Part shown: positions 13,081-35,341 of the stretch, piece by piece
How positions within the stretch are numbered: position 1 is the first letter of the stretch
Layout: each line of letters begins with the position of its first letter
Origin: a bacterium
GTDB taxonomy: Bacteria; Bacteroidota; Ignavibacteria; Kapaibacteriales; UBA7675
Reading direction: 5' to 3'
Assembly: GCA_030430495.1 (NCBI GenBank)
Contig: JAUIKM010000001.1
Location: 1-64,000, forward strand
Length of the DNA: 64,000 bases
Translations under genes and position numbers: made by a program
The notes under the pieces: generated by a model
What the model was told of the DNA's origin: nothing
Databases searched by the model: none
Seen by the model: only the letters and a program-made list of their open reading frames with translations

Positions 13081-14331
13081 ATGAATATTCATGAATACCA
13101 GGCCAAAGAACTGCTGCGCGGATTTGACGTTCCCGTTCCTTTTGGCGTCATGGTCTCTTCGCCGGAAGACGCCGGCGGTCGCACCTTTGAAGATTTTATG
13201 TCCAAAGGCACGGAAGTAGTCGTCCTCAAATCGCAGATTCACGCCGGCGGACGCGGCAAAGGTCACTTCGTCGATACAAACACGGGCGAAGCCATCGAGA
13301 TGAACGGCAAGCCGCTGCGCGGCGTCAACGTCATCAAGAGCGACAATATCGCCGATACGGTGTACCAGTACGCCAAAGCCATGCACGGCAACACGCTCGT
13401 CACGATCCAGACGGGCGACGCCGGCAAAGTCGTCAACCGCTTCCTGATTGAGGAAGGGCTCGACATCAAGAAAGAATTCTACCTCAGCATTCTGCTGGAC
13501 CGCGCCACCTCGCGCAACATCGTCATGGCGTCCACCGAAGGCGGCGTTGAGATCGAAAAAGTGGCCGAAGAAACGCCCGAAAAAATCCTGAAGGAAACCA
13601 TCGACCCGGCCATCGGCTGGCAGGGATACCAGGCGCGCCGCCTGGCCTTCAACCTCGGTTTCTCCGGCACGGCCTTTAAAAACTTCGTGAAATTCATCGG
13701 CAAGCTCGTCAAGGCCTACGAGGCGATGGACTGCAGCATGCTCGAAATCAACCCGCTCGTGCTGACGGGCGACGAGCGCATCGTGGCGCTGGACGCCAAA
13801 GTCAACTTTGACGACAACGCGCTGTTCCGCCACCCGAACTACGCCGAGCTGCGCGACCTGGGCGAGGAAGAACCGCTCGAAATCGAAGCGTCCAAATACG
13901 ACCTGAACTACATCAAACTCGACGGCAACGTCGGCTGCATGGTCAACGGCGCGGGCCTGGCGATGGGCACGATGGACATCATCAAACTCGCCGGCGGCGA
14001 ACCGGCCAACTTCCTGGACGTCGGCGGCGGAGCCAACGTGGAGCGCATCTCCAACGCCTTCCGTCTGATGCTGAGCGACCCGAACGTGCAGGTCGTGCTG
14101 ATCAACATCTTCGGCGGCATCGTGCGCTGCGACCGCGTGGCGAACGGCATTCTGGAAGCGATGAAAATTGTGGACGTCAACGTCCCGCTGATCGTCCGCC
14201 TGGACGGCACCAACGCGGTGGAAGCGCGAGAAATCCTCGAGAAATCCGATCTGGAGTTCTCCGTGGCCACGACGCTCAAAGAAGCCGCCGAGAAAGTCAC
14301 CGAAGCCGTGTCTTCGCTGGCGCCGGCCTGA
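13081..14331 (+). CDS. sucC: Succinate-CoA ligase [ADP-forming] beta subunit
   Basis: The nucleotide-binding subunit of the TCA-cycle enzyme that converts succinyl-CoA to succinate with substrate-level phosphorylation. It is 416 residues, slightly longer than the 388 of E. coli. It starts [12 protein letters not shown], carries the ATP-grasp motif HAGGRGKG (about 56-63), EINPLVL at about 221, and the CoA-ligase region with GGGAN and [10 protein letters not shown]. Its codon choice is notably regular, as expected for a highly expressed gene. The alpha subunit gene sucD is not adjacent: a terminator follows directly. Confidence 0.97.
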
Positions 14332-14429: not shown

Positions 14430-14620
14430 AGAGCTTTTGCGCGGCGGCGGGTGGATTATTGATCGGCCACGGCGGCCGCTTGGTTGATCGCGCGGCGGCC
14501 GAAACACTGAATCGCGCTTCGGCTCGTCGTCAAGGGGCGTACTTAAAACGCTCCGGCTTGCGGCGCGGAGACATTCCGGCGCGCTCCGCAGTTTCCAACC
14601 CGGCGCCAAACAAGAATATC

Positions 14621-15940
14621 ATGTCAAGATCAGGCCTGCCAGGTATTCCCACTCGATTCGGCACATTCCTCATCCGCATTCTGACCCTGCTGGTGCTCGT
14701 TTCAAGCGTGCACCTGACGCTCTCCGCGCGTTCATTTCGCGAGGTGGAGTTGCTGTCGGGAGCGGAGAACCTCGAGAGTTTCGGCATGGACACCACGGAC
14801 AACTGGTGGGCGATGACGCAGCCCTTTTCCAACCAGTACCGATTAATTGTCAACGGCGACGAAACCGAGACTTTTGAGCGGATTTCCCCGCCGATTTTCT
14901 CTCCGAACGGGCTGTTCTGGCAGACATTCGCCGTGCACCAGAACGTGCTGCAGTTTGTGTCAAATGTCGGCGACACCTGGCTTGACTACACCTCGGCCGA
15001 ACCCGCCGTGTTTTCACTGGACTCGCGCTGTATTGCATTCACGGCTTACGACAATGATCAGGCCTGGGCCGTGCGCTACCGCGTGGTGGACCACCCCGAA
15101 GGCGGTTATACGCTGCGCGAACTCGAGCGCACGCAGATCTACGAAAAACAGAGTAAACTTTTTGTGGCGACGGACGGATCCAGAACGGCCTACGTCGGGC
15201 GGCGCGGCGATACCGAGGTGGTGGCCATAGGCGACGAGGAATACGCCGTCTACGACAAAATTGAGGCGCACGGTTTTCTTGCGGACGGTTCGTTTCTCTA
15301 CTCGGCGCGATTGGGCGATCTGTGGCGTCTGTACCGCGACGACGTGGCAATTTCCTCCAGTTTCAACTCCATCAACTACGGCGTGTTTAACCGCGATCAC
15401 AGCATGTTTGCCTTTGTGGCCGTCGGCAGCGTTGTGAGTTATGCCGTCTTGCTGGAGCAGGACGAGGACGAGTTGCAGTTCAGCGAGCAGCAGGAAAGTA
15501 TTACGGCGCTGGCGATTCATCCGGACCTGGCGTTAACGGCGTTTAAGGCGTTTAACTACGGCGTTCCGAGCGTCGTGTACGGTTCGGCGCGTTATTCCGC
15601 CACGGAGAACACGGGCGCGCTGCAGTTCAGCCACGACGGGGAAGAGCTCTACTACCTGGAGTGCGACGTTATTAACTGTTATATGAACGTCAACGGCCAG
15701 CGCTACGACCTTTCGACGGACATCGACACGGGCGAGCCGCTGGTGGTGGCTCCCGGCACCAGCACCTTCAGTTTTACCACCGGTTTAACGCAGGTCGTCC
15801 GTAGTTTTGACGGCAAGGACGTGTGGTCGGGCATGCTGGTGGACCAGATGGGCCACGCGCGATTCAACTGGCGCCAGAATCGCTACGAGGCGCTGGGCAT
15901 TATTAACGACCGCTTGTACATGTTGTACTGCGGGCTGTGA
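14621..15940 (+). CDS. Secreted protein, beta-propeller-like, unknown function
   Basis: 439 residues from ATG 14621; the frame is open earlier but this start gives a clean signal peptide (RFGTFLIRILTLLVLVSSVH, cleavage near SARS). The mature part has repeated short segments with Trp/Tyr and patterns such as PAVFSLDSRCIAFTAYD, SFLYSARLGDLWRLY and GALQFSHDGEELYYLE, spaced like blades of a WD40/TolB-type propeller. Family not recognised. There is no T9SS domain. It stands alone after the sucC terminator. Confidence 0.65.
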   Translation: MSRSGLPGIPTRFGTFLIRILTLLVLVSSVHLTLSARSFREVELLSGAENLESFGMDTTDNWWAMTQPFSNQYRLIVNGDETETFERISPPIFSPNGLFWQTFAVHQNVLQFVSNVGDTWLDYTSAEPAVFSLDSRCIAFTAYDNDQAWAVRYRVVDHPEGGYTLRELERTQIYEKQSKLFVATDGSRTAYVGRRGDTEVVAIGDEEYAVYDKIEAHGFLADGSFLYSARLGDLWRLYRDDVAISSSFNSINYGVFNRDHSMFAFVAVGSVVSYAVLLEQDEDELQFSEQQESITALAIHPDLALTAFKAFNYGVPSVVYGSARYSATENTGALQFSHDGEELYYLECDVINCYMNVNGQRYDLSTDIDTGEPLVVAPGTSTFSFTTGLTQVVRSFDGKDVWSGMLVDQMGHARFNWRQNRYEALGIINDRLYMLYCGL

Positions 15941-16150
15941 GTTGTCCAGGTCTGTGTTTGTGTCGGTTTATTGATTTCTCCTGTGTTTGCCCTCATTGTG
16001 TTTAACTGAATACTCAGCGACGTCTGATTGCAGCGCCGTCCCGCCTGCGCGCTTCCGGCTTGCTTTTTGAGGATTTTGTTTGTTGTTGGGTGAGAGGAGT
16101 CACGTCCCGGAGTTGTCTTTGAGGCGTGGCGACTACGTAGGAGCTACGTA
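15941..16150. other. Intergenic region with dispersed repeats
   Basis: Contains an inverted member of the short intergenic repeat family (about 16021-16069, read on the minus strand as AAAAAGCAAGCC ... GGCGCTGCAATC). At 16074-16094 it also contains a stretch shared with 12900-12920 (TTTTGTTTGTTG, two variable bases, GGGTGAG). No gene seen. Confidence 0.5.
16133..16140. promoter_or_regulatory. CTACGTAG palindrome, putative activator/repressor site
   Basis: A perfect 8-bp palindrome 10 bp upstream of the -35 box, followed by GAGCTACGTA. The same octamer sits upstream of the promoter at 19059. I found no other copy in the window. Confidence 0.45.
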
Positions 16151-16179: not shown

Positions 16180-16218
16180 GCGTTTTTATGTACCTTCATC
16201 AACATCAGGAGAGTGACC

Positions 16219-16401
16219 ATGCCAACATGTCCGGCTTGTGGTGGATCAGGTAAATGTCGTCATTGCAGTCCGAATAAGGGCAGCGGGAAAAATCCGGACG
16301 GCAGCGACTGTCAAATGTGCCGTGGAACGGGTCGCTGCCAGGAAAAAACGCCTGCGGGTTACCGTTGTGATGGCGAAGGCACGGTAACAGCCATCAAGTA
16401 G
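16219..16401 (+). CDS. Small DnaJ-zinc-finger-like Cys-rich protein
   Basis: 60 residues from ATG 16219, with AGGAGA ending six bases upstream; a GTG at 16213 is too close to that site. It has two CxxCxGxGxC-type motifs, CPACGGSGKC (4-13) and CQMCRGTGRC (32-41), plus CRHC (13-16), as in the central zinc domain of DnaJ. It lacks a J domain. Such a protein may bind zinc and unfolded or partner proteins, but the function is unknown. It has its own strong promoter and terminator and is thus a monocistronic unit. Confidence 0.8.
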   Translation: MPTCPACGGSGKCRHCSPNKGSGKNPDGSDCQMCRGTGRCQEKTPAGYRCDGEGTVTAIK

Positions 16402-16492: not shown

Positions 16493-17041
16493 TCATTTCA
16501 TCATCAGCGCGCCGGCCTGAATCCTGCTGTGATACACCAACACCGCCAGGTAACTGCCGCGCGCCAGCTGCGAAGCGTCGATGTGGACGCGCTGGCTTGC
16601 GAGCTCGTCGAAGACGCCGCGCGCAAAGACGCCGAGATTTCGACCGAGAAGGTCGAAGATTTGAATCTCGAATTCTTCGCTCTGGCCGCTCACTTCGAGA
16701 ATCGGCTTGTTGTTAATCGGATTTGGGTAAATCTTGATGCTCGGTTCGGATGTGAAATTCGCATCCGGGATAGGAGTATCTGCTGTTAAATCCCTGTCGC
16801 CGTAGTGTGTGCCGTCTTTAATTGCGCCGCGCAGTTTCCGGGAAGAGCAATATTCACCCGGGCCGCTCGGAGGGATGGGGAGCCTGTCGCCGCCCGCGAA
16901 CAGCTTAACCACACATGGTCCGGCGGGGAAGTCATTGTCCAGGACATCGCGGTAAGGACAGAAATAACTCCGGGTGTTATCTGACTTGAGCGAGATAATC
17001 GGCTCCGCAATCTGCGCCGAAAGAGCGGCCGGGAAAATCAC
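16493..17041 (-). CDS. Short T9SS cargo protein, truncated paralogue of its neighbour
   Basis: 182 residues from a GTG. The last 80 residues form a type A T9SS sorting domain (IKIYPNPINNKPILEVSG ... IQIFDLLGRNLGVFARG ... GSYLAVLVYH). The preceding LRGAIKDGTHYGDRDLTAD matches LRGAIIDGTHYGDTDVSTD in the protein encoded upstream at 17172-18185. The two are therefore paralogues, and this one lacks most of the mature N-terminal part. Upstream of the GTG the frame continues with signal-like hydrophobic residues but has no ATG, GTG or TTG, which suggests decay or internal deletion of an older gene. Could be a pseudogene. Confidence 0.65.
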   Translation of the reverse strand: MIFPAALSAQIAEPIISLKSDNTRSYFCPYRDVLDNDFPAGPCVVKLFAGGDRLPIPPSGPGEYCSSRKLRGAIKDGTHYGDRDLTADTPIPDANFTSEPSIKIYPNPINNKPILEVSGQSEEFEIQIFDLLGRNLGVFARGVFDELASQRVHIDASQLARGSYLAVLVYHSRIQAGALMMK

Positions 17042-17171: not shown

Positions 17172-18185
17172 TCATTTCACCTGGATTAAACAGTGTGTCC
17201 GCGGAATGTCGTCAATCACGAGAACGGCAAAGTAAGCGCCTGTCGGCGTCGTCCCCAGGTCGGCTTTGAGAAACTGGTAGGGTCTGTCGTCCACAAAGAT
17301 TCCACGCGCGATTGTCGCGACACGGCGTCCGGTCATGTCGACCAGGCGGACCGCAAACTCGTTGCCTCTGCCATAGATTTCAAGGTGCAATTCACTTTCT
17401 ACCGGATTGGGGTAGGCGAAAATTTGAAATGTGCCGTCCGCCGAAATTCCGCCGTTTGAACTTACCGGCGGCAGGTCTGTTGACACGTCCGTGTCGCCGT
17501 AGTGTGTGCCGTCGATAATTGCGCCGCGCAGCACCTTGCTGGATTCCAGCGCGCCGGCTCCGCCGCCGAACGTGCGCTCCTGAATGTCCATCGCCAGAAT
17601 GCCGAAATGCGGCAGCGTGGTAAAACTGTGTCGACGGCTTGCCTCAAAAAGATAGGCGTCGTAGGTGCGCTGCTGCGCTCTTCCAGCTCTGTTGAAAATT
17701 GTCGCGTCGCTATCTATGTCGAGGCTGCCGACGTTTAACACATCACTAAACTCACTGAAGTCATCGAAGGCGCAGACGAGCGAGTCATTGTATGTCGTGC
17801 TTTCTTCGCCCAGATTGATGTAGTCGCCCCAGTATTCCATTTCCGTGTCGTTGCAATAGCCGAGACTGAAGCGCATGCGCACGTCGTTGACCTGCACCAG
17901 TTGATTGTTGCTCCAGCTTCTGTGGTTGGGTGTCGTGCCGGTAATCCGGATCACTTTAAACTCTCCATTTTTGTTAACCGAGTCGCCGACGACTGTCCAG
18001 GTCTCGGTGCCCCGGAAGTCTATAGTTGTGCGACCGCCTTCCGGCGATTCGAAGAATCCCTCGTTCTCAACAGCGTAGATCCATGTGTTGCCAATATCCA
18101 GCGGGACGATCGGGTCTTCCTGCGCGAGCGACGATGTGAACGTTAAACACAGAGCAATTAAACACAAACTGTAATAAGGCTTCAT
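17172..18185 (-). CDS. Secreted T9SS cargo protein, unknown function
   Basis: 337 residues. It has a signal peptide (residues 1-21, cleavage after SLA-Q), then a beta-rich domain starting PIVPLDIGNTWIYAVENEG. That start is common in extracellular proteins of this group and contains a GNTW-type motif. A type A sorting domain follows from about 255 (FQIFAYPNPVESELHLEIYG ... GAYFAVLVID). The C-terminal domain directs outer-membrane export through T9SS and cell-surface anchoring or release. It lies 130 bp upstream of its short paralogue, in the same direction. Confidence 0.8.
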   Translation of the reverse strand: MKPYYSLCLIALCLTFTSSLAQEDPIVPLDIGNTWIYAVENEGFFESPEGGRTTIDFRGTETWTVVGDSVNKNGEFKVIRITGTTPNHRSWSNNQLVQVNDVRMRFSLGYCNDTEMEYWGDYINLGEESTTYNDSLVCAFDDFSEFSDVLNVGSLDIDSDATIFNRAGRAQQRTYDAYLFEASRRHSFTTLPHFGILAMDIQERTFGGGAGALESSKVLRGAIIDGTHYGDTDVSTDLPPVSSNGGISADGTFQIFAYPNPVESELHLEIYGRGNEFAVRLVDMTGRRVATIARGIFVDDRPYQFLKADLGTTPTGAYFAVLVIDDIPRTHCLIQVK

Positions 18186-18464
18186 AGTTGTCTCATGTCA
18201 AGAGTGTATCTGGAAAATGTTAACTCTCTGCCGATGTGTTTTGCTCGGCGGCGTTTTTTCGTGACTGATGCACGAAGCGCCGGCATTGAGCGTGCGGAAA
18301 CGGCCCGGCTCCGGCCATACACACCGACTCCACCATTCTAAATGTGTCCAAATTGAGACGCAGGGGCACTACTGCATTTCTACTGCATTGTCCGCAAAGC
18401 GCAGGGCGGGGCGCTGTCGGCGCATTGTTGAAAACGGAGATTCTGCCTCTTTTGCGCGACTTCT

Positions 18465-18490
18465 GATTACAGCGCCGCCTGCGCGGCTCG
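18465..18490 (-). repeat. Inverted 26-bp fragment of the 147-bp repeat
   Basis: Reverse complement of 28040-28065 (26 of 26) and of 18779-18804 (25 of 26). The core is GAGCCGCGCAGGCGGCGCTG, itself able to form a GC-rich hairpin. Confidence 0.8.
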
Positions 18491-18663
18491 TTTTATGACT
18501 GTCTTGCTGGTCAGGGAGTTGGAAGTAATTCAGTGGAATGCCGGAGAGGTTTTTTTGTCGCGGGTGTAGCGGTTTAGAATCTCCGGTCGCTGCGGAGCCA
18601 CGGAACACATGTTTGCAGTTTCCGGTGAAAAGACCTCAGATTGATGAGCGAGTGCCGTTTTGA

Positions 18664-18810
18664 CGTACCGCCCGGCGGCGGACTCTCAAACGACAGAATT
18701 GTCGCGGGGGGACGAGTTTACCCTGAGGATATGGATGCGCCGGCTGAAAACTGCGCGACTAACAAAAAGGTCAGGAAACGAGCCGCGCATGCGGCGCTGT
18801 AATCGGGGGA
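18664..18810 (+). repeat. 147-bp direct repeat, copy 1
   Basis: Begins CGTACCGCCCGGCGGCGG and ends GTAATCGGGGGA. It aligns without gaps to 27925-28071 with four mismatches that I can count. It contains the dyad CGACA-N4-TGTCG and a GC-rich hairpin near its end. It lies upstream of the caspase operon promoter. Confidence 0.92.
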
Positions 18811-19030
18811 GAATGAGCGGTTCTCGTGACGAAAATCAACGAACTGGAGTGCTTGCATACGCTACGTGGTTGCGTCGTCGAAGGGAATGCATAGAATTTG
18901 AGCAACACGGGGAAAAGCAGGAAAAGCGCAGAAACTCAGGCCTGGTTGGCGAAATTGGCGGGTGCACGTCGTTGATCAAGAAAATCCGGGCGATCACGAC
19001 TGGTTGAAAATCGCCAACATTTTGCAGCCA

Positions 19031-19038
19031 CTACGTAG
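19031..19038. promoter_or_regulatory. CTACGTAG palindrome, putative regulator site
   Basis: Perfect 8-bp palindrome 20 bp upstream of the -35 box at 19059, the same octamer as at 16133. Confidence 0.45.
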
Positions 19039-19058
19039 CTGAGCGGCGCGAATACGCA

Positions 19059-19087
19059 TTGACAAGAACCTGGGCACTTTCTATATT
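19059..19087 (+). promoter_or_regulatory. Strong sigma-70-type promoter of the caspase operon
   Basis: TTGACA (19059-19064), 17-bp spacer, TATATT (19082-19087). A TATGTACC box follows at 19101, as in the promoter at 16151. The first operon gene begins about 240 bp downstream, leaving a long 5' leader. Confidence 0.8.
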
Positions 19088-19329
19088 ATTCGCCGCTACC
19101 TATGTACCCAACTGCTCATGGCGTACAGCGATCATCCGGTCTGCACAATGTTCCGCCTTCGGGTGAATCACATGCAACACTAAAACATCAGTCGGACTAC
19201 ATCACCGGCAGGGACAGTGAGCGACGGGGTGACTACATGGATTACAGCTTTGCAGACATCAGTTTCTACCGATGTCCGGTATTAACATTGTCTGAACAGA
19301 ACGCAATCCTATCGGGAAGGGGGACAGTC

Positions 19330-20055
19330 ATGAGAGTTGTCTTAGTGTTTGTCGTATGTTTAACAGTGTTTCAGTCCCGCGTTCATAGCCAGACGCCTTG
19401 CCGGGCGGAATTCACTGCTTCGACAAAAGTCGTGCAGATTGGCGACAGCACGGTGCTCAGATGGGATGTCGAGGGGCAGACGGAGGTATATGTTTCCGGC
19501 TTCGGCCTGGCGGCAAATCCGGGACGGATGACGATCTTGCCGAGTGAACCGAATAGGTACTATCTGGTATCGTACTGCGATTCATTGCCTGTGGTTTTGA
19601 CATTGGCGATTGGCGTCAGCGGAATTCACGGACCGTCGTTCGATTCGTTGCCGGAGGACGATGACTACGCATATGATTTGAGTCAGAAAATTTCCATCGG
19701 CAGCATTACATCCTATCTGGACTACGTCAAATCTGTTTTACAGGACTCACTGCAACTTCGCGTTAAAGAACAAAGCGAGACATCAATTTTTAAATACGTC
19801 TTTAAAACTTTCCCGTCAGTCAGCAATGAACTGTTATCTCCGTCCGACGATGCTTTAAGGGCGCGCCGTTTAGCGTACTCCGTGACGCTCACGCGATTGG
19901 CGCAAGAGCGCGATGGGAGCGTTTACAACTGTAAAATCAGCGTTTTGATTGAAGCCCGGCGCAGACTCGAACAGCATTGGTACAAAGAAGAGGACAGGGC
20001 GCTCTACAGGAAGCAGGGAGAAGTCCTGCGCAGTTACCTGACCGGACAGGACTGA
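19330..20055 (+). CDS. Secreted protein, unknown function, first gene of caspase operon
   Basis: 241 residues from ATG 19330, which gives a clear signal peptide (MRVVLVFVVCLTVFQSRVHSQ). The open frame before it is leader sequence. The first 90 residues are beta-rich (VVQIGDSTVLRWDVEGQTEV resembles an Ig-like or pre-PEGA domain). The rest is helical with charged residues (DYVKSVLQDSLQLRVKEQ, LEQHWYKEEDRALYRKQ). Three Cys residues remain in the mature part. Not recognised. The next gene follows at 57 bp. Confidence 0.65.
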   Translation: MRVVLVFVVCLTVFQSRVHSQTPCRAEFTASTKVVQIGDSTVLRWDVEGQTEVYVSGFGLAANPGRMTILPSEPNRYYLVSYCDSLPVVLTLAIGVSGIHGPSFDSLPEDDDYAYDLSQKISIGSITSYLDYVKSVLQDSLQLRVKEQSETSIFKYVFKTFPSVSNELLSPSDDALRARRLAYSVTLTRLAQERDGSVYNCKISVLIEARRRLEQHWYKEEDRALYRKQGEVLRSYLTGQD

Positions 20056-20112
20056 TAAAGTAATTACCAGTTAAACCGTGCCCGAACAATCACAAAGCAG
20101 GCTCGAAAAAGC

Positions 20113-20568
20113 ATGTCCCAGTTAAAAATCATGTTCAACATCCGGGTTGTGTTAATGATCATCTGGCTCGTGGGCCTGGTGATCAGTCTTTCGGTGTTGT
20201 TTTACATTCACGCTAAAAACTGGATCGGCGCGGAAAATTTCAAGATGATGATCAAACAGTTGAATACGCTTTATGCTCCGTTTATCGGCAGTATTCTGGG
20301 ATTTCACTGGCTGCACCGGAGCAAACCTTCGGTCGTTAACGAGCACGCGGTGGATACGTCCAACGCCAAACTCGCTGGTGCAATCGCCGTTGTTTTCTCG
20401 CTGCTCTGGAACGGCGGCGTTGCTGCAGCGATGTTGATTCTTTTATTCGAGAACGGCACCGTCGAAGGCGCGCTGGAATTTTTCAGCACGATCCAGACAG
20501 TTTTTCTGGGGGCCGCCGGCGCGGCGCTTGGGTACTTTTTTGGTGCGGATGTTAACGGTCGAGAGTGA
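20113..20568 (+). CDS. Small integral membrane protein in caspase operon
   Basis: 151 residues with three or four membrane helices: about residues 9-34, a weaker one at 55-68, 92-115 and 124-146 (FLGAAGAALGYFFGAD). The hydrophilic loop between (HRSKPSVVNEHAVDTSNAK) is short. Family not recognised. It lies 12 bp before the caspase-like gene, with which it is very probably co-translated, so it may anchor or regulate that enzyme. Confidence 0.7.
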   Translation: MSQLKIMFNIRVVLMIIWLVGLVISLSVLFYIHAKNWIGAENFKMMIKQLNTLYAPFIGSILGFHWLHRSKPSVVNEHAVDTSNAKLAGAIAVVFSLLWNGGVAAAMLILLFENGTVEGALEFFSTIQTVFLGAAGAALGYFFGADVNGRE

Positions 20569-20580
20569 GGCGGGCAATCA

Positions 20581-22419
20581 ATGACAACAAAACTGACTAT
20601 GTTGATGGCGCTGTGCATCTGCTGTCTGCCTGCATTTGCGGGGGCCGATGAGATAGTTGAACAATTCAGATCCGATGCCGGTGAAAAGATTGCAATTGTC
20701 GTAGGAATTGCGGACTACCCCTATTTGTCCAGCGAGGAATACAGTGAAATTAGATACGCCGCGGCGAATGCGGAAAAGATTGCACGCACCCTTAAACAGC
20801 CGCAATGCGGCTTTCGGGAGAGTAATGTTTTCCTCTTGCTTAACGATGCGGCCGGCAGAGCCGCCATCCTGGATACAATTGACATGCTTAAACAAAAGTA
20901 CGACAGTTACAAGGACACGGTGTATTTCTATTTCTGCGGGCATGGCGAAATTGATTCCGAGTATTGCGACTGCGACAATGCCAGTTGTGAATTCCTGTTA
21001 AAGACCTACAATACGAGCAACAACAGCGACAGCGAGATTTCTTTTGGCGAGTTGTACCGGGAGTTGAGACAGTTTGAGGCGGACAACGTGGTTGTGTTTA
21101 TCGACGCCTGCCATTCAGGCGCGTGCTACATTCCTACTCTGGCCGGCCGAGATAATTCCAAGGATAAACTTCGGATTTTCACATCAACTGGTTGTGCATT
21201 AAACTCCTACGAAGATGTGTCAATCGGGCACAGCGTTTTTGCCTGGTTTTTGCTGAAGGCGCTCGGCGGTCATGCGGATGATATGGTTGACGACGCCGTC
21301 ACAACTTCCGTCGAGCTTTCCGAATACATCCAGCAGTCGGTGGAAACATATGTGGACCGTATGCTTGACAAAAACTCGCTGGGACTTCAGAGCAATTATC
21401 TGCACCTGCAATCGCCTCAGACCATCGGCGTATTCTGGGATCAGAATGACTTTGTGTTTGTTAAGCGAAATGGTGCGCCGGTTGAGCGGGATGATCGCCG
21501 GCGAGATACTTCCGGTCAATCGGACATAGCCGAGTCGGCCGTAACTGATGTGTGCAACCGGGCCGAACTCTGCATGCTGCGGCACAAGTATGACGAGGCG
21601 ATCGGAATTCTGCGGACTGTGATACAAGAATACCCCAGGGCGTTCAGAGGGCATCAACTACTGGGCGAAGTTTATTGCAGAACCCGGCAATGGAAAGAAG
21701 CGCAGAACGCATTTTTGGATGCAATTGCCGCGGATCCGGACAACATCAGGGTGAAAGTACTTTTGGGCAATGCGTTTATGATGACCGGGGATTTTGCACG
21801 GTCCAGGTATTTTTTGCAGGCGGCAGCCAGGAGCGACAGCGACAAACCGACGGCGTACTACAATCTGGCGTTGCTGCACGAACGGCACCTGCGCTACGCG
21901 GAAGCAATCGAATACTACGAGCGTTTTTGTGAACTGGCGAGCGGTGTGGACGACATCAGCGCCGGCAAGATCGATTCCGTTAAAAACAACATAGACGCAA
22001 TGTACAAATATGCGATTCACTTTGAGAAAGGGAAGGAGCTTTTGCGTAGCAATAATCCGGGCGAAGCGGAGCGGGAGTTTAACATTGCAACCAGGATTGA
22101 CAAATATCGGGCGGAAGGCTGGTACGAATTGGGAAAAATACAATACGAGCGGCAAGACTATAGCCAGGCTGCCAGATCGTTCAAGTACACGGTGGCGGCA
22201 GCGCCTCAATACCAAAATTCATACTACTTGCTGGCCAAGTCATTCGAGGAACTGGGCGAATACGAATACGCACTGGGCTACCTTGAGGTTTATCTGGACA
22301 AGGCCCAGCACAGCCTTGACGGTTTTCCATTTAGAGCCGAAGCGGAAATCAGCAGGAATGCCCTGGAACGCAAACTACGCATCCAGCGCGATGACAGCGG
22401 TATAGCAGCTCCGCCTTAG
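20581..22419 (+). CDS. Secreted caspase-like (peptidase C14) protein with TPR repeats
   Basis: 612 residues. A signal peptide (residues 1-21) is followed by a caspase/metacaspase domain (about 36-240). The catalytic dyad is visible: His121 in FCGHGE and Cys177 in IDACHSG. From about residue 315 there are at least six TPR-like helix pairs (AELCMLRHKYDEAIGILRTV; YYNLALLHERHLRYAEAIEYY; GWYELGKIQYERQDYSQAARSF). Prokaryotic C14 proteases cleave after Arg/Lys or Asp. The signal peptide places it in the periplasm or outside, unlike cytoplasmic defence caspases. In the operon it precedes a giant T9SS cargo protein, which could be its substrate (inference). Confidence 0.88.
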   Translation: MTTKLTMLMALCICCLPAFAGADEIVEQFRSDAGEKIAIVVGIADYPYLSSEEYSEIRYAAANAEKIARTLKQPQCGFRESNVFLLLNDAAGRAAILDTIDMLKQKYDSYKDTVYFYFCGHGEIDSEYCDCDNASCEFLLKTYNTSNNSDSEISFGELYRELRQFEADNVVVFIDACHSGACYIPTLAGRDNSKDKLRIFTSTGCALNSYEDVSIGHSVFAWFLLKALGGHADDMVDDAVTTSVELSEYIQQSVETYVDRMLDKNSLGLQSNYLHLQSPQTIGVFWDQNDFVFVKRNGAPVERDDRRRDTSGQSDIAESAVTDVCNRAELCMLRHKYDEAIGILRTVIQEYPRAFRGHQLLGEVYCRTRQWKEAQNAFLDAIAADPDNIRVKVLLGNAFMMTGDFARSRYFLQAAARSDSDKPTAYYNLALLHERHLRYAEAIEYYERFCELASGVDDISAGKIDSVKNNIDAMYKYAIHFEKGKELLRSNNPGEAEREFNIATRIDKYRAEGWYELGKIQYERQDYSQAARSFKYTVAAAPQYQNSYYLLAKSFEELGEYEYALGYLEVYLDKAQHSLDGFPFRAEAEISRNALERKLRIQRDDSGIAAPP

Positions 22420-22508
22420 TCTGTGGCACGCGGTTAACAACATCATATTGATGTACCGGTAGGCGGCGCCGTAGACGCAAAAGAACATGAAATCAATGAG
22501 GAAAAGCC

Positions 22509-25500
22509 ATGCATGAGATCTTCAAACACATCGCATTCAACAGCTGGCATCGGCCAGGAAGTCTTTTAACAACTCTGTGTATAGTGCTATGCGTCAGCGT
22601 GAGCCCGATACAGGCGCAATTGTCGATAACAGACACGTTTCCAGCAATCAATGCCTCCAACGTTCCGAACAATACGAGTATCAGCATTACATTTGACGCT
22701 CCCGTGGACGCGTCAAGTGCAAATGTCAATACCATAGGCGTCCATGCACAGCTGTCTGGAGTTCTGAGTTCAAACGCAAGCACGTATTCTGTCGAGTCCA
22801 ATGTCGTGACTATCAGGCCGGATGTCCCATTCAAATCCGGCGAGCAGGTGATCGTATCGATTAGCGACGTTCGCCGAGTGCAAGGACCCGGTACTGCCGG
22901 GCCGTTTGTTTTTTCGTTCGTCATTGGTTCATCTCCACTGTCGAAAGCTCTGTTTCGCGAACGGACTGTCCTGCCGGCGGGCGGGAAACCGCAGTCGGTC
23001 GTCGCCGGCGATTTTAACAACGACGGCCTGGTCGACATTGCGGTCAGCAACGTCGGAGAATCAAACCTTACTATTGTGGAAAACAGAGGGAACTACGAAT
23101 TCGATGAACCATATACGGTGGCACTTCCGGGCGATGCGTCGTCGCTGTTTGTCGCCGATTTTACCAGGGACTCCTTTCTGGAACTCCTTGTTTATGTCCC
23201 ATCACTGAACGAGACATTTGTGATCAGGAGTGGTGGAACGGGGCGGTTTTGGGACAATGCGCAAAGTTTTGGCGAGCAGTACGGTCCAATTTGCATTGCC
23301 GATTTCGACTCGGATGGGAATCTGGACATGGCGCTGGCATCCAGCTCGTTAAGAAGAATTGTTATTTTCTCTGAAATTAGTAGTGGAGTGGAACCGATAC
23401 AGTATTCTTACGAGGAATTTCCGCCGGGCTTTATTCCCGGTAGTATTGCCGCCGCCGACCTTGATCGCGATGGCGCCGTCGATATCGTCGTCGGTGACAG
23501 AGATCGCGGACTGTTACGGATGTATTTTAACAATGGAAATTTTGACGGCGACAGCTTTGAGGAGCAGTCTCAATTGGAGATTAAACGTCCGGCAACCGCG
23601 CTGCAAGCGGTGGATGTCAACCTCGATTCCAATATGGACATCGTCGCCACGATTCCGGGCCTGAACCCCGAAGACGACGAAGCGGCGGTGTTGATACAGC
23701 AGCCGGACGGGACTTTTGACAGTCAGGCAGCCGGCTTTGAATTTTACGGTTCACATTCTCTGCAGGCGGCGGATATCGACGGGAATTCTTATCCTGATAT
23801 GTTAATAGCCGACAGCCGTCCCTGTGTGATCCCCGGAGTGAAAAACTACATCTGGTACATGTTGAACGACAACGGCGAATATGGCGAGGCGGATACGCTT
23901 CAATTTTCCAGGAGTTTTCCTTCGGCAATATGCGCGGCTGACTATGACGGCGACGGCAGTATTGATATTGCGATAACAAACAGCAGCAGCGGCACGGTGT
24001 CCATTCTCTATAATGAAATCGACGGTGCGCCGCCTACAGCGCCGACGATCACGTTGTTACAACCGGAAATTAACCAGCTTAACGTCGCAGAGACGTCTCG
24101 CATCAGCGTGTTTTTCAGTCAACCTCTGAAACGCTCGACTGTTAAAAGTGAAAATGTCGTAGTGCATGGATCCGTGAACGGGCGTATTTCGCAGTCTTCG
24201 GACATCCGCTATCGCGAAGAGAATGGGCAATATTATATCGAGATTATTCCGGACAGGGCGTTCAGTCCCGGCGAATACATTTCTGTCAGCATCAGGAACA
24301 TCGAAAACTGGCGTCATATTTCTATGACCGATCCTTATGTTTACAGTTTTACCGTGCGAAGCTCGCCCGGACCGGCGCAGTTCAAGATCAGTCAATTCAA
24401 CAATGTAACGATGCCGTCGGCTATATCGCTGGCGGACATGGACGGCGACGGCGGGTCGGACATTGTCGCGGCAAGTTCGACCGACGATCAGGCGCTGATT
24501 TTCTGGAACGACGGCGTCGGCGGGTTTGAAGAGCGTAGTTCGTTTGCGGCCGGCGGCGAACCCGTTGCCGTTGTAAGCGCGGATTTTAATGGAGATGGTC
24601 TTGTCGATCTGGCCGCGGCGAACAACGCCGGCCAAAACATCGAGATATTCCTTAATAATGGCGAGCGGGTGTTTAGCGGCGCTCAGGCGGCGCCGTTGAC
24701 AAGTGCGCCGCGACAAATTGCGGCGGCGGATATAAACGGCGACGGCGCTCCTGATATCGTATGTTCGATGCGCTCGGCTGATTCGCTGTTTGTCTTGTTA
24801 AACGACGGAGACGGGCAATTGGGCAACTCGCCGCTCGGGTTTGCGGGGCTGCGCCAGGGCCGGATTGTAACGGCCGATTTCAACAAGGACGGCGACGTGG
24901 ACATAGTCTCGGTCGCACCGGACGGCCGCGTATTTGTGTACGACAATCTGAACAACACCGGCCGGTTTACAATCGAAGAAATACTGAATGAGGCCGCAGG
25001 CGGCAAGGCCCTTATTGCAGGCAATCTGGACAACGATTTTTATCCGGACATTGTGATTGTTAATTATCAATTGAACTTAATCCACATTTACAGGAACAAT
25101 GCCGACGGATCCTTTTCTAAGGTTCCAGATGTTGTCAGCCTTGATCCGGATGGCGCCGGGACTCCGGCGTTGGCGGATGTGGACGGCGACGGGGACCTGG
25201 ACCTGGTTTTGTTTCACAATAGTCCGACCGACGGGTTGGTCCTGTTCCTGAACGACGGCTCCGGCGCATTCGAGAAAGAGCTGAATGTTTTGGGGCGAAG
25301 CTTTGCACAAAGCCTCATTGCTGCGGGTGATCTGGACAATGACGGCGACGTGGATTTGGCGGCGGTCGACCCCGAGTCAGGGGGATTGTCGATTCTGTTA
25401 AATACCGAAGTGACGCAACTGGAAGTGCTGCCGCAGTACGAGCCGAATATCTGCAAGCATGAAATACTGGTATTAAACGCTGAGATTCAGGGCGGAATTC

Positions 25501-26975
25501 CTCCCTACTCCGTTGAATGGAGAAATGCGGACGGTTTGGTGCAATATTCGGAACAGGTCAGTACCGCCACTATTTCCCGGTTCTATACCCTGGCCGTGAC
25601 GACCACGGTATTCACCGTCGATGTGACGGATCTGGCCGGCCGGAGTTCCTCGGCGTCGTTTGTTGTTGATGTCCACGCAATCAGCGCAAGAATATGTCGC
25701 TCGGATGATTCTACGCTTGTGGCCTACCCGCGGGGTATGGCGGCGTATCAATGGCTGTTAAACGGCGAGCCGATAACAGGCGCAACATCCTCCACCTACC
25801 GGGACAGCGTGCTTGACGGCGCTTATGCTGTCCAGACTACCAGTGAGGCCGGCTGTACTACCACGTCCACGGCAAGAACGTTCGACGCAGCGGCGGCATT
25901 GCAGCTTCTGGATCTCTGTTTTGATTATTACGTCGCCGACGCGGAAAAGAGCAAAAAGGTCAGAGTCGTTAACGCTGCGACCGACAGCATATTTGTGATT
26001 TCCATGGAAATTGAAAATGATGATCCGGGGGAGTTTCACATTCTCAACCCGGCGGATTCATTCTATGTATTGCGCGGCGAGAGTTTCTATACCTATGTGC
26101 GCTATGCACCTGAATCGGCAGGCGTAAAAGCCGCGGCCTTAAAGATCAACACCAATGCCGGTGAGTTTCGCAGTGCGCTCATCGGGAATGCTCAGGAGCC
26201 GAAGTCGGTGTTAGTAAGCTCGGTTGACATGCGCTTGACTCCGATCCTGTTAAAAAGCGTCACCGCGGACCCCGGAGATAGCTTTCTGCTTCAGGTTGTA
26301 CTTCCACGGATTGAACAGGCCGAATTGTTGAGCGATGGCGGGAGTATATGTACAATGGATATTCTGTTTAACAAGTCGGTTCTGCTTTACACGGGTGCGA
26401 CGCTCCGTCATCCTGAAGGAGTTCCCGCTCCGCGGGCGTATTCCCAATTGCGGGATATTTCCTATCCCTGGGCGACGGTTGAATTCAGCGGCAGCTGCAT
26501 GGAGAGCGACACCGCGATTCAGGCTTTTAATTTTGTTTCGATGATCGGAAGTGCGGCCTTTGCAACAATCAACGTCGGCCGCCTGGAGTGGTTAACCCGG
26601 AAGGAGGGTGTTGTTACGCGGGAACTGTACTCCGAGCCGGACACTGTGCATGCGCGCGATTTTTGCGTGCAGGGCGAACCCTTGTTAATCGGGCCGGATA
26701 TACGCTACAAAAACTCAACATTGGGAATAGTCATTACCCCCAACCCGGCCAATGATGTGGTAGAGGTCGAGTTTGAACTGGCGGAAGCTGCCAATGTTGA
26801 ACTGACTTTGACCAATTTGTTTGGCGAAAGACTTGCAACTAAAACAGTGCTGAAGAGCAAAGCCGGTAAAAACACCGCTGCGTTGGACGTCGGACAGCTT
26901 GGCAGCGGTTCGTATTTTGTGGCGCTGCGGCACGGGGGCACTCTCAGCACGGCACAACTTAACATATTTCGGTAG
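22509..26975 (+). CDS. Giant FG-GAP/VCBS-repeat surface protein with T9SS sorting domain
   Basis: 1488 residues from ATG 22509 (GAGGA six bases upstream). After the signal peptide (residues 14-37) come a Big_5-type Ig domain (PAINASNVPNNTSISITFDA), a run of FG-GAP/VCBS repeats with calcium-loop motifs (DFNNDGLVDIAVS, DLDRDGAVDIVVGD), a second Big_5 domain near 520, and more FG-GAP repeats. An Ig/PKD-like section around 990-1150 follows, and then a type A T9SS domain at the end (ITPNPANDVVEVEFELAE ... GSYFVALRHGG). It probably forms calcium-stabilised propellers at the cell surface, for adhesion or binding. Fourth gene of the caspase operon. Confidence 0.87.
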   Translation: MHEIFKHIAFNSWHRPGSLLTTLCIVLCVSVSPIQAQLSITDTFPAINASNVPNNTSISITFDAPVDASSANVNTIGVHAQLSGVLSSNASTYSVESNVVTIRPDVPFKSGEQVIVSISDVRRVQGPGTAGPFVFSFVIGSSPLSKALFRERTVLPAGGKPQSVVAGDFNNDGLVDIAVSNVGESNLTIVENRGNYEFDEPYTVALPGDASSLFVADFTRDSFLELLVYVPSLNETFVIRSGGTGRFWDNAQSFGEQYGPICIADFDSDGNLDMALASSSLRRIVIFSEISSGVEPIQYSYEEFPPGFIPGSIAAADLDRDGAVDIVVGDRDRGLLRMYFNNGNFDGDSFEEQSQLEIKRPATALQAVDVNLDSNMDIVATIPGLNPEDDEAAVLIQQPDGTFDSQAAGFEFYGSHSLQAADIDGNSYPDMLIADSRPCVIPGVKNYIWYMLNDNGEYGEADTLQFSRSFPSAICAADYDGDGSIDIAITNSSSGTVSILYNEIDGAPPTAPTITLLQPEINQLNVAETSRISVFFSQPLKRSTVKSENVVVHGSVNGRISQSSDIRYREENGQYYIEIIPDRAFSPGEYISVSIRNIENWRHISMTDPYVYSFTVRSSPGPAQFKISQFNNVTMPSAISLADMDGDGGSDIVAASSTDDQALIFWNDGVGGFEERSSFAAGGEPVAVVSADFNGDGLVDLAAANNAGQNIEIFLNNGERVFSGAQAAPLTSAPRQIAAADINGDGAPDIVCSMRSADSLFVLLNDGDGQLGNSPLGFAGLRQGRIVTADFNKDGDVDIVSVAPDGRVFVYDNLNNTGRFTIEEILNEAAGGKALIAGNLDNDFYPDIVIVNYQLNLIHIYRNNADGSFSKVPDVVSLDPDGAGTPALADVDGDGDLDLVLFHNSPTDGLVLFLNDGSGAFEKELNVLGRSFAQSLIAAGDLDNDGDVDLAAVDPESGGLSILLNTEVTQLEVLPQYEPNICKHEILVLNAEIQGGIPPYSVEWRNADGLVQYSEQVSTATISRFYTLAVTTTVFTVDVTDLAGRSSSASFVVDVHAISARICRSDDSTLVAYPRGMAAYQWLLNGEPITGATSSTYRDSVLDGAYAVQTTSEAGCTTTSTARTFDAAAALQLLDLCFDYYVADAEKSKKVRVVNAATDSIFVISMEIENDDPGEFHILNPADSFYVLRGESFYTYVRYAPESAGVKAAALKINTNAGEFRSALIGNAQEPKSVLVSSVDMRLTPILLKSVTADPGDSFLLQVVLPRIEQAELLSDGGSICTMDILFNKSVLLYTGATLRHPEGVPAPRAYSQLRDISYPWATVEFSGSCMESDTAIQAFNFVSMIGSAAFATINVGRLEWLTRKEGVVTRELYSEPDTVHARDFCVQGEPLLIGPDIRYKNSTLGIVITPNPANDVVEVEFELAEAANVELTLTNLFGERLATKTVLKSKAGKNTAALDVGQLGSGSYFVALRHGGTLSTAQLNIFR

Positions 26976-26998
26976 TAAACGAACGGGAGACACCAGTC

Positions 26999-27838
26999 AT
27001 GTCTGAAAAAGCGCGCTGCATGATGATTGCCTTCACACTCACTCACATCCTGCTGTCGGTTCAGTCAAGCGCATCCGACGATGTGGGTTTGCACGAGCAG
27101 AAATTCGGAATCGAGTTCCTGGAAGTGTTTAATATGCACGAGCCGGACTTTGCCGGCTTACGTGGAATTGTGAGCTGTTGTCCTTCCAAATACGACCACG
27201 AACATTCGCATGGAATATCGATCGGTCTGCTGTTTCAACAAGCGCTTGATTCGGATTTTTCTCTTGGAACGCGCGTGAGTTTCAAGACGTTCGACGTGGA
27301 CTTCAGCAAACAGCGGCAAACGCTGTTCGCGGGTCCTCTGGATACCAACAATCTGAACACGATTGTCGATGGCGTATTGACGACAAGTATTGACGCCGAG
27401 CTGTCCGGTCTGGAGTTTGGCGTTACGGGCCAGTATCGACTTGTTAACAAACTGTCGGTATTTACGGGGGTGAATATCACGGTCCTGCTTACCGGCAAGG
27501 CATATCACAGAGAAGAGATCAGCGAGCCGGCGGAGGGAATCGTTTTTCTGGAAACGGGCAGAAATCTACGCAATGAGTTTGACGGAGAAATTCCGTTTAC
27601 AAGTTCCGTTCTCTACGGCTGGGCGGCAGGCATCGGCTATGAAATTGCCCTTGACGACCGGGAGTCCTGGTTTGTTGAACCGCGGATTACATATTCGCTC
27701 GGATTAAACTCGCTTGTTCAGCACAACTCCTGGCTGATTGATCACGTGAGTTTTGGCGTCGCGTTTACTTTTTCGCCGCATGGACTTCCGCTGCCTCCGA
27801 CTGAACCTGGACGTCCGGATTTGCCAATATGGCCCTAA
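26999..27838 (+). CDS. Probable outer-membrane beta-barrel protein
   Basis: 279 residues with a signal peptide (about 1-25). The mature chain has alternating polar and aromatic strands (SGLEFGVTGQYRLVNKLSVF, YGWAAGIGYEIALDD, FVEPRITYSLGLNSL, VSFGVAFTF) typical of PorT/OmpA-like small barrels, with a proline-rich end (LPLPPTEPGRPDLPIWP) after the last strand. It lies 23 bp after the giant surface protein and ends the operon. It may anchor or secrete the neighbouring products; this is inference. Then follows the second 147-bp repeat. Confidence 0.7.
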   Translation: MSEKARCMMIAFTLTHILLSVQSSASDDVGLHEQKFGIEFLEVFNMHEPDFAGLRGIVSCCPSKYDHEHSHGISIGLLFQQALDSDFSLGTRVSFKTFDVDFSKQRQTLFAGPLDTNNLNTIVDGVLTTSIDAELSGLEFGVTGQYRLVNKLSVFTGVNITVLLTGKAYHREEISEPAEGIVFLETGRNLRNEFDGEIPFTSSVLYGWAAGIGYEIALDDRESWFVEPRITYSLGLNSLVQHNSWLIDHVSFGVAFTFSPHGLPLPPTEPGRPDLPIWP

Positions 27839-27924
27839 GCTTTCGATTGTCCGGCCTGAAGTGGGAATGAACTGTGAGCCTCACACCTGAAAGTTGGATA
27901 ACCAGGATGAGAGTGCTGTTTCGC

Positions 27925-28071
27925 CGTACCGCCCGGCGGCGGACTCTCAAACGACAGAATTGTCGCGGGGGGACGAGTTTACCCTGAGGATATAGATGCG
28001 CCGGCTGAAAACTGCGCGACTAACAAAATGGTCGGGAAACGAGCCGCGCAGGCGGCGCTGTAATCGGGGGA
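27925..28071 (+). repeat. 147-bp direct repeat, copy 2
   Basis: Same orientation as 18664-18810, with four mismatches and no gaps. One change turns TGG into TAG in the longest open frame of copy 1. It ends 25 bp before the stop of motA and starts 86 bp after the last gene of the caspase operon. Confidence 0.92.
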
Positions 28072-28095
28072 AAAACAGGGGGAGATGTGTCGGCG

Positions 28096-28935
28096 TCAGT
28101 TTTCCCTGGCCACGGCAAAACTGCGCGGCAGGGGAGCTTTGAGGATGGCGTCCTGTTCGTCGCCCGGGAGAGCGCCGGCCAGACGGGCGCGGATAACGGA
28201 AGGAGTTTCGCCCATTTGCACGCCCATCACACCTTCGATGATAATGCGCATGAGGCGGTATTCCTCGTCGTGCAGGCTCTGCAGTTTGTCGCCGATTGGC
28301 AGCCAGACGATGTTCGCCATCAGGATGCCCCACATGGTCGCGATAAAGGCGGAGGCGATGTGACGGATGAGCGTGCCCGGGTCGTCGCCCGCGCTGCCGA
28401 GAACCATAATCAGGCCCATGACGGTGCCGATAATACCCATGGTAGGCGAGTAGCCGCCCAGCTTGACAAACATTTGGATGTTGGTGTTGTGGCGTTCGCC
28501 GACGAAGTCCAGCTCGGTTTCAGCTACGTTGCGCAGCGTTTCCGGGTCGGCGCCGTCGATGGCGACCTGGAACATTTTGCGCATAAAAGGATGCTCGACG
28601 CGTGTGAGGTGTTTTTCGATCGCAATAATGCCGTCGCGACGCGCCAGGACGGAGAAATTGACGATCTGATTGATCAGGGCGTGCGTGTTGTATTTGGTCG
28701 GCAACATGGCGATGGCGATCAGTCGCGGAATCAGCGCGATGCGATCCAGGGAGGAACCGATAATACCGGCCGCGATGGTGCCTCCGATTACGATGGTAAT
28801 CGGCGCAACGGCAAAGAGCGCTTCAAGGGTGCCGCCCTCCAGGAGAAAGGAGCCCAGGATTGTGAACAATCCCAGCAGCAGCCCCACAAAGGTTCCCGTG
28901 CGGAGCAAATGAGACCAAGTGGAGTCCGTATTCAT
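28096..28935 (-). CDS. motA: Flagellar motor stator protein MotA
   Basis: 279 residues, four predicted membrane helices (about 13-30, 38-55, 165-188, 198-218) and the large cytoplasmic loop between helices 2 and 3. Conserved features include the TIVIGGTIAAGIIG region and helix 3 with LGGYSPTMGIIGTVMGLI, where the conserved proline and the MGxIGTVMGL pattern are characteristic. MotA with MotB forms the ion-driven stator that powers rotation. motB is not adjacent. It lies 20 bp after flgL in the same direction and is probably transcribed with flgN-flgK-flgL. Confidence 0.93.
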   Translation of the reverse strand: MNTDSTWSHLLRTGTFVGLLLGLFTILGSFLLEGGTLEALFAVAPITIVIGGTIAAGIIGSSLDRIALIPRLIAIAMLPTKYNTHALINQIVNFSVLARRDGIIAIEKHLTRVEHPFMRKMFQVAIDGADPETLRNVAETELDFVGERHNTNIQMFVKLGGYSPTMGIIGTVMGLIMVLGSAGDDPGTLIRHIASAFIATMWGILMANIVWLPIGDKLQSLHDEEYRLMRIIIEGVMGVQMGETPSVIRARLAGALPGDEQDAILKAPLPRSFAVAREN

Positions 28936-32103: not shown

Positions 32104-32244
32104 GGGGGAAATCAGCGTGAGTTGTGATTTGCAGCTTGGGATGTCAACAAATCTTCTATTGGGACCAGGCTTAAGCGCTTGAATTCTTTGATGCACATCA
32201 CCTCAACTGTAGCGGTGATCCATCCCAGACGCCCATTTACCTAT

Positions 32245-32289
32245 ATTGCCTAGCTTCGGAGAGTGAGGAATCGCATCTTGGAAGCGGGG
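32245..32289 (+). repeat. 45-bp direct repeat beside the island, copy 1
   Basis: ATTGC, then TTCGGAGAGTGAGGAAT at 32255-32271, then AAGCGGGG. The same arrangement recurs at 32387-32431 with several mismatches outside the 17-bp core. Confidence 0.75.
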
Positions 32290-32386
32290 TCATCCCAAGT
32301 TAGGAGGCTCAAAACTGACATTGCTTCTTCGACCGATCAGTACACCTGATGCAGCACTGGCGCACGTCCAACTTTCGTTGAAATTT

Positions 32387-32431
32387 ATTGCTTCGGTTCG
32401 GAGAGTGAGGAATTGTATCCTTAAAGCGGGG
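32387..32431 (+). repeat. 45-bp direct repeat beside the island, copy 2
   Basis: Second copy, spaced 142 bp from the first, with an identical TTCGGAGAGTGAGGAAT core. It ends 29 bp before the stop of the ATPase gene. Confidence 0.75.
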
Positions 32432-32459
32432 GCAGGTAAAGGGAACTGAATTTTTAGTC

Positions 32460-34298: not shown

Positions 34299-34315
34299 GA
34301 AAAACCTGATTCAAT

Positions 34316-35341
34316 TTAGTTAAAACATCGTGTGATATATTTGGCCATTTCCGGTGCTACGGCGTTTCCGACCTGGCGAGCACAAGAAGATAGTGAACCA
34401 TGAAAAACAAATTCATCAGGGAAAGTTTGCAGACGCGCGGCTTCTCGAACACTTATAGCCCGGTGCTGTTCAGGATGACCAAAGCGGCCATTCGAGTAAC
34501 TGATACATCTGGTTGTTAGTGTCGGAGCCGGAGCATTCCACGCCATTCGCCCATAAACATCCGTATGCCCCTTGTGATTTTTATGACTGGGGATTGTAAG
34601 TTCGGCAGGCCAGTTACGGCGGTCTCCACCTGGGGGGGTGTTTTTGATCCTGTTTAAGTTTATTGCGGATAGTTTGGCAGACTCATGATTGGGAATGTCA
34701 GGATGACTTTCTCCTGCCTTGATTTCTGGTAGATCCGAAATAAACATTTTGGTAGTTGCAGGTTCGACATTATTGAACGTCATTGAATATTCGATTGGGG
34801 AGATTGACAGACCGGAATTTTGTCGGCAGGCAATCAGAATGAATCTTTTTCGAGTTTGAGGCACCCCATATCTGGAGGCGTCGACAACCTGCATGTCAAA
34901 TTCATATTTGTTGTGTTTTAATGTTTGCAGAAACGTTTTGAACATTCCACCATTCTTGTCAATGTTTTGCAGACCGGGCACATTCTCAAGGAAAAGGTAT
35001 TCCGGCTTCCAGTACGTAATGAATCGACTGAATTCTGTTAAAAGAGAACGGCGTGAATCGTAGGACGTAATTCTTCTTTGGTGTTTGCTGAATGGCTGAC
35101 AGGGAGCACAGCCAGAAAAGAGCAAAGGCGTACGACGCCTCTTATTCAAAATACCTGACAGATCAGCTGGCCGGACTGTTCTAATATCTTCTTGAATTGT
35201 AAAAGCTTCAGGAAAGTTGGATCTGAACGTTTTGATTGAGTCATGGTCAAAATCGAGTGCGCCAGCAATCTCAAAACCACCGTTCTGAAATCCGAGACTG
35301 GTTCCACCGCAGCCGCTGAAAAAATCAAACACTCTGACCAT
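34316..35341 (-). CDS. DNA (cytosine-5) methyltransferase
   Basis: 341 residues. It carries the m5C methyltransferase motifs in order: I (DFFSGCGGTSLGF, 6-18, SAM binding), IV (SGCAPCQPFS, catalytic Cys81), VI (FLENVPGLQ, Glu119) and VIII (QTRKRFILIA). A short target-recognition region follows, then IX/X (REAARLQTFPDEF and QVGNAV near the end). The recognition sequence cannot be read from this. It is the first gene of the two-gene island inserted between flgJ and flgN. Its AT-rich codons point to horizontal transfer. Confidence 0.95.
   Translation of the reverse strand: MVRVFDFFSGCGGTSLGFQNGGFEIAGALDFDHDSIKTFRSNFPEAFTIQEDIRTVRPADLSGILNKRRRTPLLFSGCAPCQPFSKHQRRITSYDSRRSLLTEFSRFITYWKPEYLFLENVPGLQNIDKNGGMFKTFLQTLKHNKYEFDMQVVDASRYGVPQTRKRFILIACRQNSGLSISPIEYSMTFNNVEPATTKMFISDLPEIKAGESHPDIPNHESAKLSAINLNRIKNTPPGGDRRNWPAELTIPSHKNHKGHTDVYGRMAWNAPAPTLTTRCISYSNGRFGHPEQHRAISVREAARLQTFPDEFVFHGSLSSCARQVGNAVAPEMAKYITRCFN

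Follow-up and report, generated by a model that had tools for sequence, protein, structure and literature searches.

A caspase-encoding surface operon bracketed by direct copies of a dispersed, lineage-specific hairpin element in a Kapaibacteriales genome

We analysed a 64,000-nucleotide stretch of a Kapaibacteriales genome (contig JAUIKM010000001.1, positions 1 to 64,000; hereafter the window), focusing on a five-gene operon that encodes a secreted caspase-like protein and a cargo protein of the type IX secretion system (T9SS). The operon lies between two direct repeats, A and B, part of which belongs to a high-copy intergenic element that we term E, and comparable blocks bracketed by direct, extended copies of E recur at other loci of the same genome. 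We give about even odds (a probability near 0.5) to the reading that this operon belongs to a group of lineage-specific accessory cassettes, often carrying T9SS cargo, that sit in conserved neighbourhoods between direct extended copies of E and were inserted at or with this element.

Repeats A and B contain a dispersed intergenic element

The cores of repeats A (18664-18810) and B (27925-28071) lie on the same strand, are identical at 143 of 147 positions and align without a gap, exactly as a first-pass annotation of the window had described; the four substitutions fall at 18733 (G/A), 18768 (A/T), 18773 (A/G) and 18790 (T/G). Weaker similarity beyond the 147-bp core extends the pair to approximately 178 bp (18643-18820 and 27906-28081, no strand assigned; 92.7%), placing A at the left edge of the operon block and B at its right edge, immediately 3′ of motA. 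Because a whole-genome search recovered the full-length repeat (147-178 bp) only at A and B (expectation values 9e-85 and 5e-70), the pair is not a product of chance. Nevertheless, the right ~60 bp of the repeat, element E itself, comprise a GC hairpin and a T-rich tail and form a dispersed intergenic family, and A and B are therefore not unique attachment-like sites. The E core in A (18746-18805, minus strand; 67.5 bits with model R1) carries the hairpin GCCGC(ATGC)GCGGC followed by the T-rich tail, and that in B (28007-28066, minus strand; 65.7 bits) lies 30 nt 3′ of motA in the sense of that gene. A third core, inverted relative to A, was found at 18463-18521 (plus strand; 59.9 bits), and a fourth, matched by the model at 16024-16092 (plus strand), lies about 85 nt 3′ of a TolB-like gene in its sense. 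The first-pass annotation had recorded the A/B pair, missing these two additional copies and the genome-wide family, and had taken the repeats to belong to the operon; that specificity does not hold, given the 114 matches to their right ~60 bp. It had itself named copies scattered without relation to the operon as grounds for abandoning its view, and such scatter was observed for the right ~60 bp only.

A sequence model built from eight copies matched E at least 114 times in the organism's own genome and not once in 12 relatives, including two from the same family; as scoring covered the best 150 of 3296 candidates, 114 is a lower bound. Among the 13 genomes searched, E is restricted to this one. 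A strict pattern yielded 62 matches in the same genome versus 0 for its reversed control, and the consensus reads TGATTRCAGCGCC-variable hairpin-GGCTYGCTTTCTGAC-TTTTTGTTTGTC. Of 33 copies placed relative to genes, 31 lay outside called genes, which agrees with the high-copy, non-coding and intergenic habit of miniature inverted-repeat transposable elements (MITEs). With a codon-based gene call, 21 of the 33 had a same-strand gene on their 5′ side, many within 130 nt (21 vs 12, p 0.08), and with a first open reading frame call the split was 18 vs 16; a position 3′ of genes in their sense is therefore a weak tendency, and E is not a strict 3′ terminator of every gene. Copies also cluster: 15 pairs would be expected within 10 kb, and 36 are found, 20 of them direct and 16 opposite.

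The consensus fold of the E core contains just 6 base pairs, with weak covariation and double changes at 2 of them. Extended copies on contig C45, by comparison, are ~190-bp imperfect palindromes (-73 to -79 kcal/mol) that fold as ~170-bp hairpins; those on contigs C28 and C78 consist of a core plus an inverted core, and A and B are themselves poor palindromes. The palindromic character of a MITE is thus clear in the C45 hairpins and weak in A and B. An Rfam scan of the window returned no match. A system of repetitive extragenic palindromes with their associated tyrosine transposases was rejected, as a genome search found no Y1 transposase. Beside the E copies at contig ends we saw no transposase (beyond the Y1 family, transposase families were not searched), and these copies adjoin paralogous genes, leading us to discard the idea that they are insertion sequence ends. 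The only pattern match on viral contigs lay within a phage gene and was judged to be chance. E is a lineage-specific, high-copy, palindromic, MITE-like intergenic element, even if the bracketing of the operon should prove a by-product.

The operon occupies a variable junction between conserved genes

To the right of the block lies motA (28096-28935, minus strand); to the left lie the TolB-like gene (14459-15940, plus strand) and, beyond it, sucC (13081-14331). The arrangement in which flgJ-flgN-flgK-flgL-motA converges on the TolB-like gene and sucC is kept in relative G002, of the same family, and in G011, of another family. The motA/TolB-like gap measures 767 bp in G011, ~1.0 kb in G002 and 12.2 kb here. 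It holds an EamA-like gene in G011 and a methyltransferase gene in G002, none of the genes found here, and no copy of E in either relative. Within our 12.2 kb, two T9SS cargo paralogues (16493-17041 and 17172-18185, both minus strand) lie between the plus-strand E copies at 16024 and 18463, followed by the operon between A and B, whose E cores are both on the minus strand. GC content is 0.52-0.54 inside the inserted blocks (0.52 in the operon block) versus 0.59 in the flanks. Given that the same junction lacks the operon in G002 and G011 and that GC content falls inside the block, the operon block is an insertion between two conserved chromosomal genes, one of the origins that the first-pass annotation had suggested. 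The block may also be excisable cargo, as that annotation proposed, though the empty sites in the two relatives carry no repeat copy. Different gene sets fill the space that separates this conserved gene pair, in a comparison that spans genera and families rather than strains.

Within the T9SS block we also observed, at 16213-16401, an open reading frame for a 60-62-residue CxxCxGxG zinc-finger-like protein, with a promoter match (11/12) at 16151; a Pfam search with its 60-residue reading gave no match.

Similar blocks are bracketed by direct copies of E at other loci

Among the 11 best-scoring pairs with similarity extending across E, 10 lay on the same contig, in direct orientation and 0.5-9.3 kb apart, a configuration (direct, within 10 kb) that accounts for 0.48% of all E pairs. 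Multiplying over four loci gives 5e-10, a figure that treats the loci as independent and takes no account of duplication being inherently local; it therefore establishes locality, not mechanism. On C45, three direct ~190-bp copies (91-97% identity) bracket segments of 5.7 kb and 3.2 kb, which encode a 1130-residue secreted PKD/Ig_7 protein and a 929-residue PQQ_2 protein with a Por_Secre_tail domain, so that at least one of these two large secreted proteins is a T9SS cargo. The segments are inserted between mutA and a penicillin amidase gene, which are 8 bp apart in relative G001 and 1.7 kb apart, with other genes between them, in G002. Three direct copies on C28 bracket unrelated genes, including one for a VWA/OmpA protein, and two direct pairs surround 5.7 kb on C78. 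GC content is again lower inside than in the flanks: 0.484 and 0.546 vs 0.58-0.61 on C45, 0.466 vs 0.559 for the first C28 block, and 0.507 vs 0.556-0.591 on C78. In the blocks of the window, C45 and C28, genes run against the direction of E. The recurrence of low-GC, E-bracketed blocks at these three loci is the reason why the edge repeats still fit the insertion footprint suggested by the first-pass annotation, even though they are not specific to the operon.

Local duplication can produce a similar picture. The strong pair on contig C70 is a plain tandem duplication of a gene together with E (3.4 kb at 71-72%, E copies 6.4 kb apart), and local duplication therefore also happens in this genome; the region concerned (G000:C70:168000-181000) additionally holds RHS-like repeats. 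Extending this explanation to the other loci, with a gene-plus-E unit duplicated in tandem and its genes later diverging, would demand protein-level paralogy that we did not find, either among the C45, C28 and C78 blocks and their flanks or between the operon proteins and the neighbouring T9SS pair. As far as genes were tested, tandem duplication is ruled out at C45, C28 and C78, and as a general account it is the least credible of those weighed here.

A stronger competitor, and the main rival, treats the bracketing as a by-product: E would be a mobile or copyable terminator-like element that spreads locally, either by gene conversion or as a MITE transposing over short distances, and ordinary horizontal transfer would have brought the operon to a permissive junction. 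The tendency of E to lie just 3′ of genes, the clustering of its copies and the other genes held by the motA/TolB-like junction in G002 and G011 all agree with it, as does the inverted copy at 18463, where E accumulates at this locus without bracketing. Local hopping should, however, yield both orientations, as the near pairs overall do, whereas 10 of the 11 extended pairs of highest similarity are direct. We regard this explanation as possible, though it falls well short of an even chance.

Possible routes of insertion

If the operon is an accessory cassette inserted at or with E, an incoming cassette carrying E would have recombined with an E copy already present next to the end of a gene, so that one copy remained on each side. 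The exchange could have been the work of general homologous recombination or of a trans-acting recombinase; we infer both the role of E as the site and the nature of the enzyme. Several observations weigh against this reading. No recombinase or transposase was found inside any bracketed block, in line with the first-pass annotation for the interval between A and B, nor a Y1 transposase in the genome. Inspection of the flanks revealed no convincing or consistent target-site duplication at A, at B or at the outer ends of the A-B unit; the 7-mer ATGAGCG flanks A, but its left copy is ambiguous, falling in a stretch that B shares in part. Alignments of the 147-bp repeat to other E copies end at the core. 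The second C28 block has a GC content of 0.554, close to its left flank (0.559), gene orientation within the C78 block is not uniform, departing from the other loci, and the C70 pair is a duplication. Misassembly across repeats of 147-190 bp is also conceivable.

Two conventional mobile structures were considered against the same evidence. In composite transposition, a pair of E-derived MITEs would move the intervening DNA, the transposase being provided in trans. MITE pairs that flank and mobilize cargo are known (PMC10969869), and the long C45 palindromes would suit such a role; the poor palindromes at A and B, the lack of a clear target-site duplication and the failure to identify an autonomous element with E ends make this route unlikely. 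A classical genomic island bounded by attL and attR, its integrase since lost, would account for the direct repeats, the lower GC content and insertion 3′ of a gene, and 14 tyrosine-recombinase matches (PF00589) exist elsewhere in the genome. Yet the repeat sequence outside the core differs from locus to locus, the E core is scattered over the genome, and no block holds an integrase or a remnant of one, so that we consider such an island slightly less likely still. Its tRNA-targeted form was rejected, the window containing no tRNA gene. The 14 recombinases look Xer-like or Bacteroidota-integrase-like and none was recognized as an integron integrase, an assessment made by eye and not by scoring against an IntI model. 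Two of the Xer-like enzymes are encoded by adjacent, divergent genes near a contig end (G000:C49:66029-67162).

The cassette reading also has a bolder form, in which an undescribed cassette-capture system recombines at E: a dispersed palindromic site, served by a recombinase in trans, at which cassettes for secreted and surface proteins are stacked in succession, the site being duplicated, away from integrons and with no resident integrase. We hold this to be doubtful.

The operon encodes an exported caspase-like protein and predicted surface proteins

The promoter and domain content proposed by the first-pass annotation were reproduced, apart from the start of the first gene. A sigma-70-like match (TTGACA-17-TATATT, 11/12 by consensus) lies at 19059-19087 on the plus strand, on which all five genes are also encoded. 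P1 (19333-20055), for which a start at 19333 is likelier than one at 19102, has a signal peptide, a β-strand N-terminal part and a helical C-terminal part in a structure model of very low confidence (pLDDT 35), and belongs to no family. P2 (20113-20568) is a 151-residue membrane protein, also without a family, for which a low-confidence model predicts four helices. P3 (20581-22419) combines a signal peptide and tetratricopeptide repeats (TPRs) with a caspase-like Peptidase_C14 domain (2.9e-11, above the Pfam cut-off), and both caspase motifs, CGHG (His) and DACHSG (Cys), are intact, giving it the His-Cys dyad of prokaryotic caspases. P4 (22509-26975), a 1488-residue FG-GAP/Big_5 protein, ends in a type A T9SS sorting domain (Por_Secre_tail; PF18962 1.1e-8; TIGR04183 28.5 bits vs a cut-off of 23), as T9SS cargo does. 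P5 (26999-27838) is an outer-membrane β-barrel matching OMP_b-brl_2, and no NCBIfam match marks it as a PorP/SprF-type partner barrel.

Judged from these domains, the most likely role of the operon is to form an assembly at the cell surface that includes an exported protease. P4 would be exported by the T9SS, P5 would reside in the outer membrane and P2 in a membrane; P3 may act in the periplasm or outside the cell, on the assembly of P4, P5 and P2 or on foreign proteins.

No convincing relative of P1 was found in 123 genomes of the order (one match was weak and partial) or on plasmids, nor of P2 in 395 genomes of the phylum, and a set of named genomes gave a distant TPR match in Treponema only. 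Caspase genes do lie near outer-membrane or T9SS genes at one locus in relative G034 and two in G059; because those of the other relatives inspected do not, secreted caspases beside such genes are a recurrent theme, not a conserved system. The G034 locus, on contig C155, is a run of seven genes that includes a WD40-caspase, OmpA, a barrel/OmpA protein, CHASE2, TPR and a T9SS cargo. The suggestion that the gene set is undescribed accordingly stands for the exact combination, with P1 and P2 lacking clear relatives, and not for the broader theme, which relatives share with other partners.

Elsewhere in the window, flgN and flgJ, adjacent in relatives, are split by genes at 32460-35341 with a GC content of 0.43-0.45, encoding an AAA/OLD-like ATPase (AriA/HEC-04-like PADLOC matches) and a C5 DNA methyltransferase. 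These genes are probably an insertion into the flagellar cluster with a role in defence or modification; at the edge of this insertion (32244-32434) lie two 49-bp direct repeats, 82% identical and 142 bp apart.

Implications and comparison with known systems

If the operon and the blocks on C45, C28 and C78 are indeed cassettes inserted at or with E, a single genome records the repeated gain of surface-protein and effector-like genes, each time at a copy of the same structured element. This would account for the diversification, without visible integrases, of T9SS surface proteins in this lineage. It would also predict one copy of E at empty sites and two at filled ones. Should the bracketing be a by-product, what remains is a palindromic element present in many copies and specific to the lineage, together with an insertion point of variable content that separates motA from the TolB-like/sucC genes.

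Exported prokaryotic caspases and TPR-bearing ones are known, TPRs being among their commonest partner domains (PMC3501461). With its caspase domain, TPRs and signal peptide, P3 resembles the secreted caspases (metacaspases) of prokaryotes that carry TPR or WD40 repeats; it differs in its operon, where a barrel, two orphan proteins and an FG-GAP T9SS cargo accompany it in a combination not found in relatives. Like the attC sites of integrons, E is a structured site between successive inserted genes, with one site orientation and a consistent gene direction on C45, on C28 and in the window. The cassettes here, however, are 3-9 kb long and dispersed, and the E consensus lacks RYYYAAC/GTTRRRY end motifs, so that an attC identity was rejected. 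E resembles MITEs such as Correia elements, SPRITE and ERIC (PMC10969869) in being short, non-coding, palindromic and intergenic, with ~100 or more copies and a terminator-like hairpin. It matches no Rfam family, and its extended copies surround accessory blocks locally and in direct orientation; because neither target-site duplications nor a partner transposase (autonomous element) were found, we do not classify it as a proven MITE. Neisserial minimal mobile elements place different whole-gene cassettes between two conserved genes without an integrase, in association with intergenic arrays of dispersed repeats (dRS3/NIME) and with surface-protein genes (PMC3898611); such cassettes are by definition taken up by homologous recombination through the flanking genes. 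The motA/TolB-like junction, compared here across genera and families, resembles them in its varying gene content, its surface-protein genes, its dispersed repeats and the lack of an integrase, with the difference that every block in this genome lies between long direct copies of one element.

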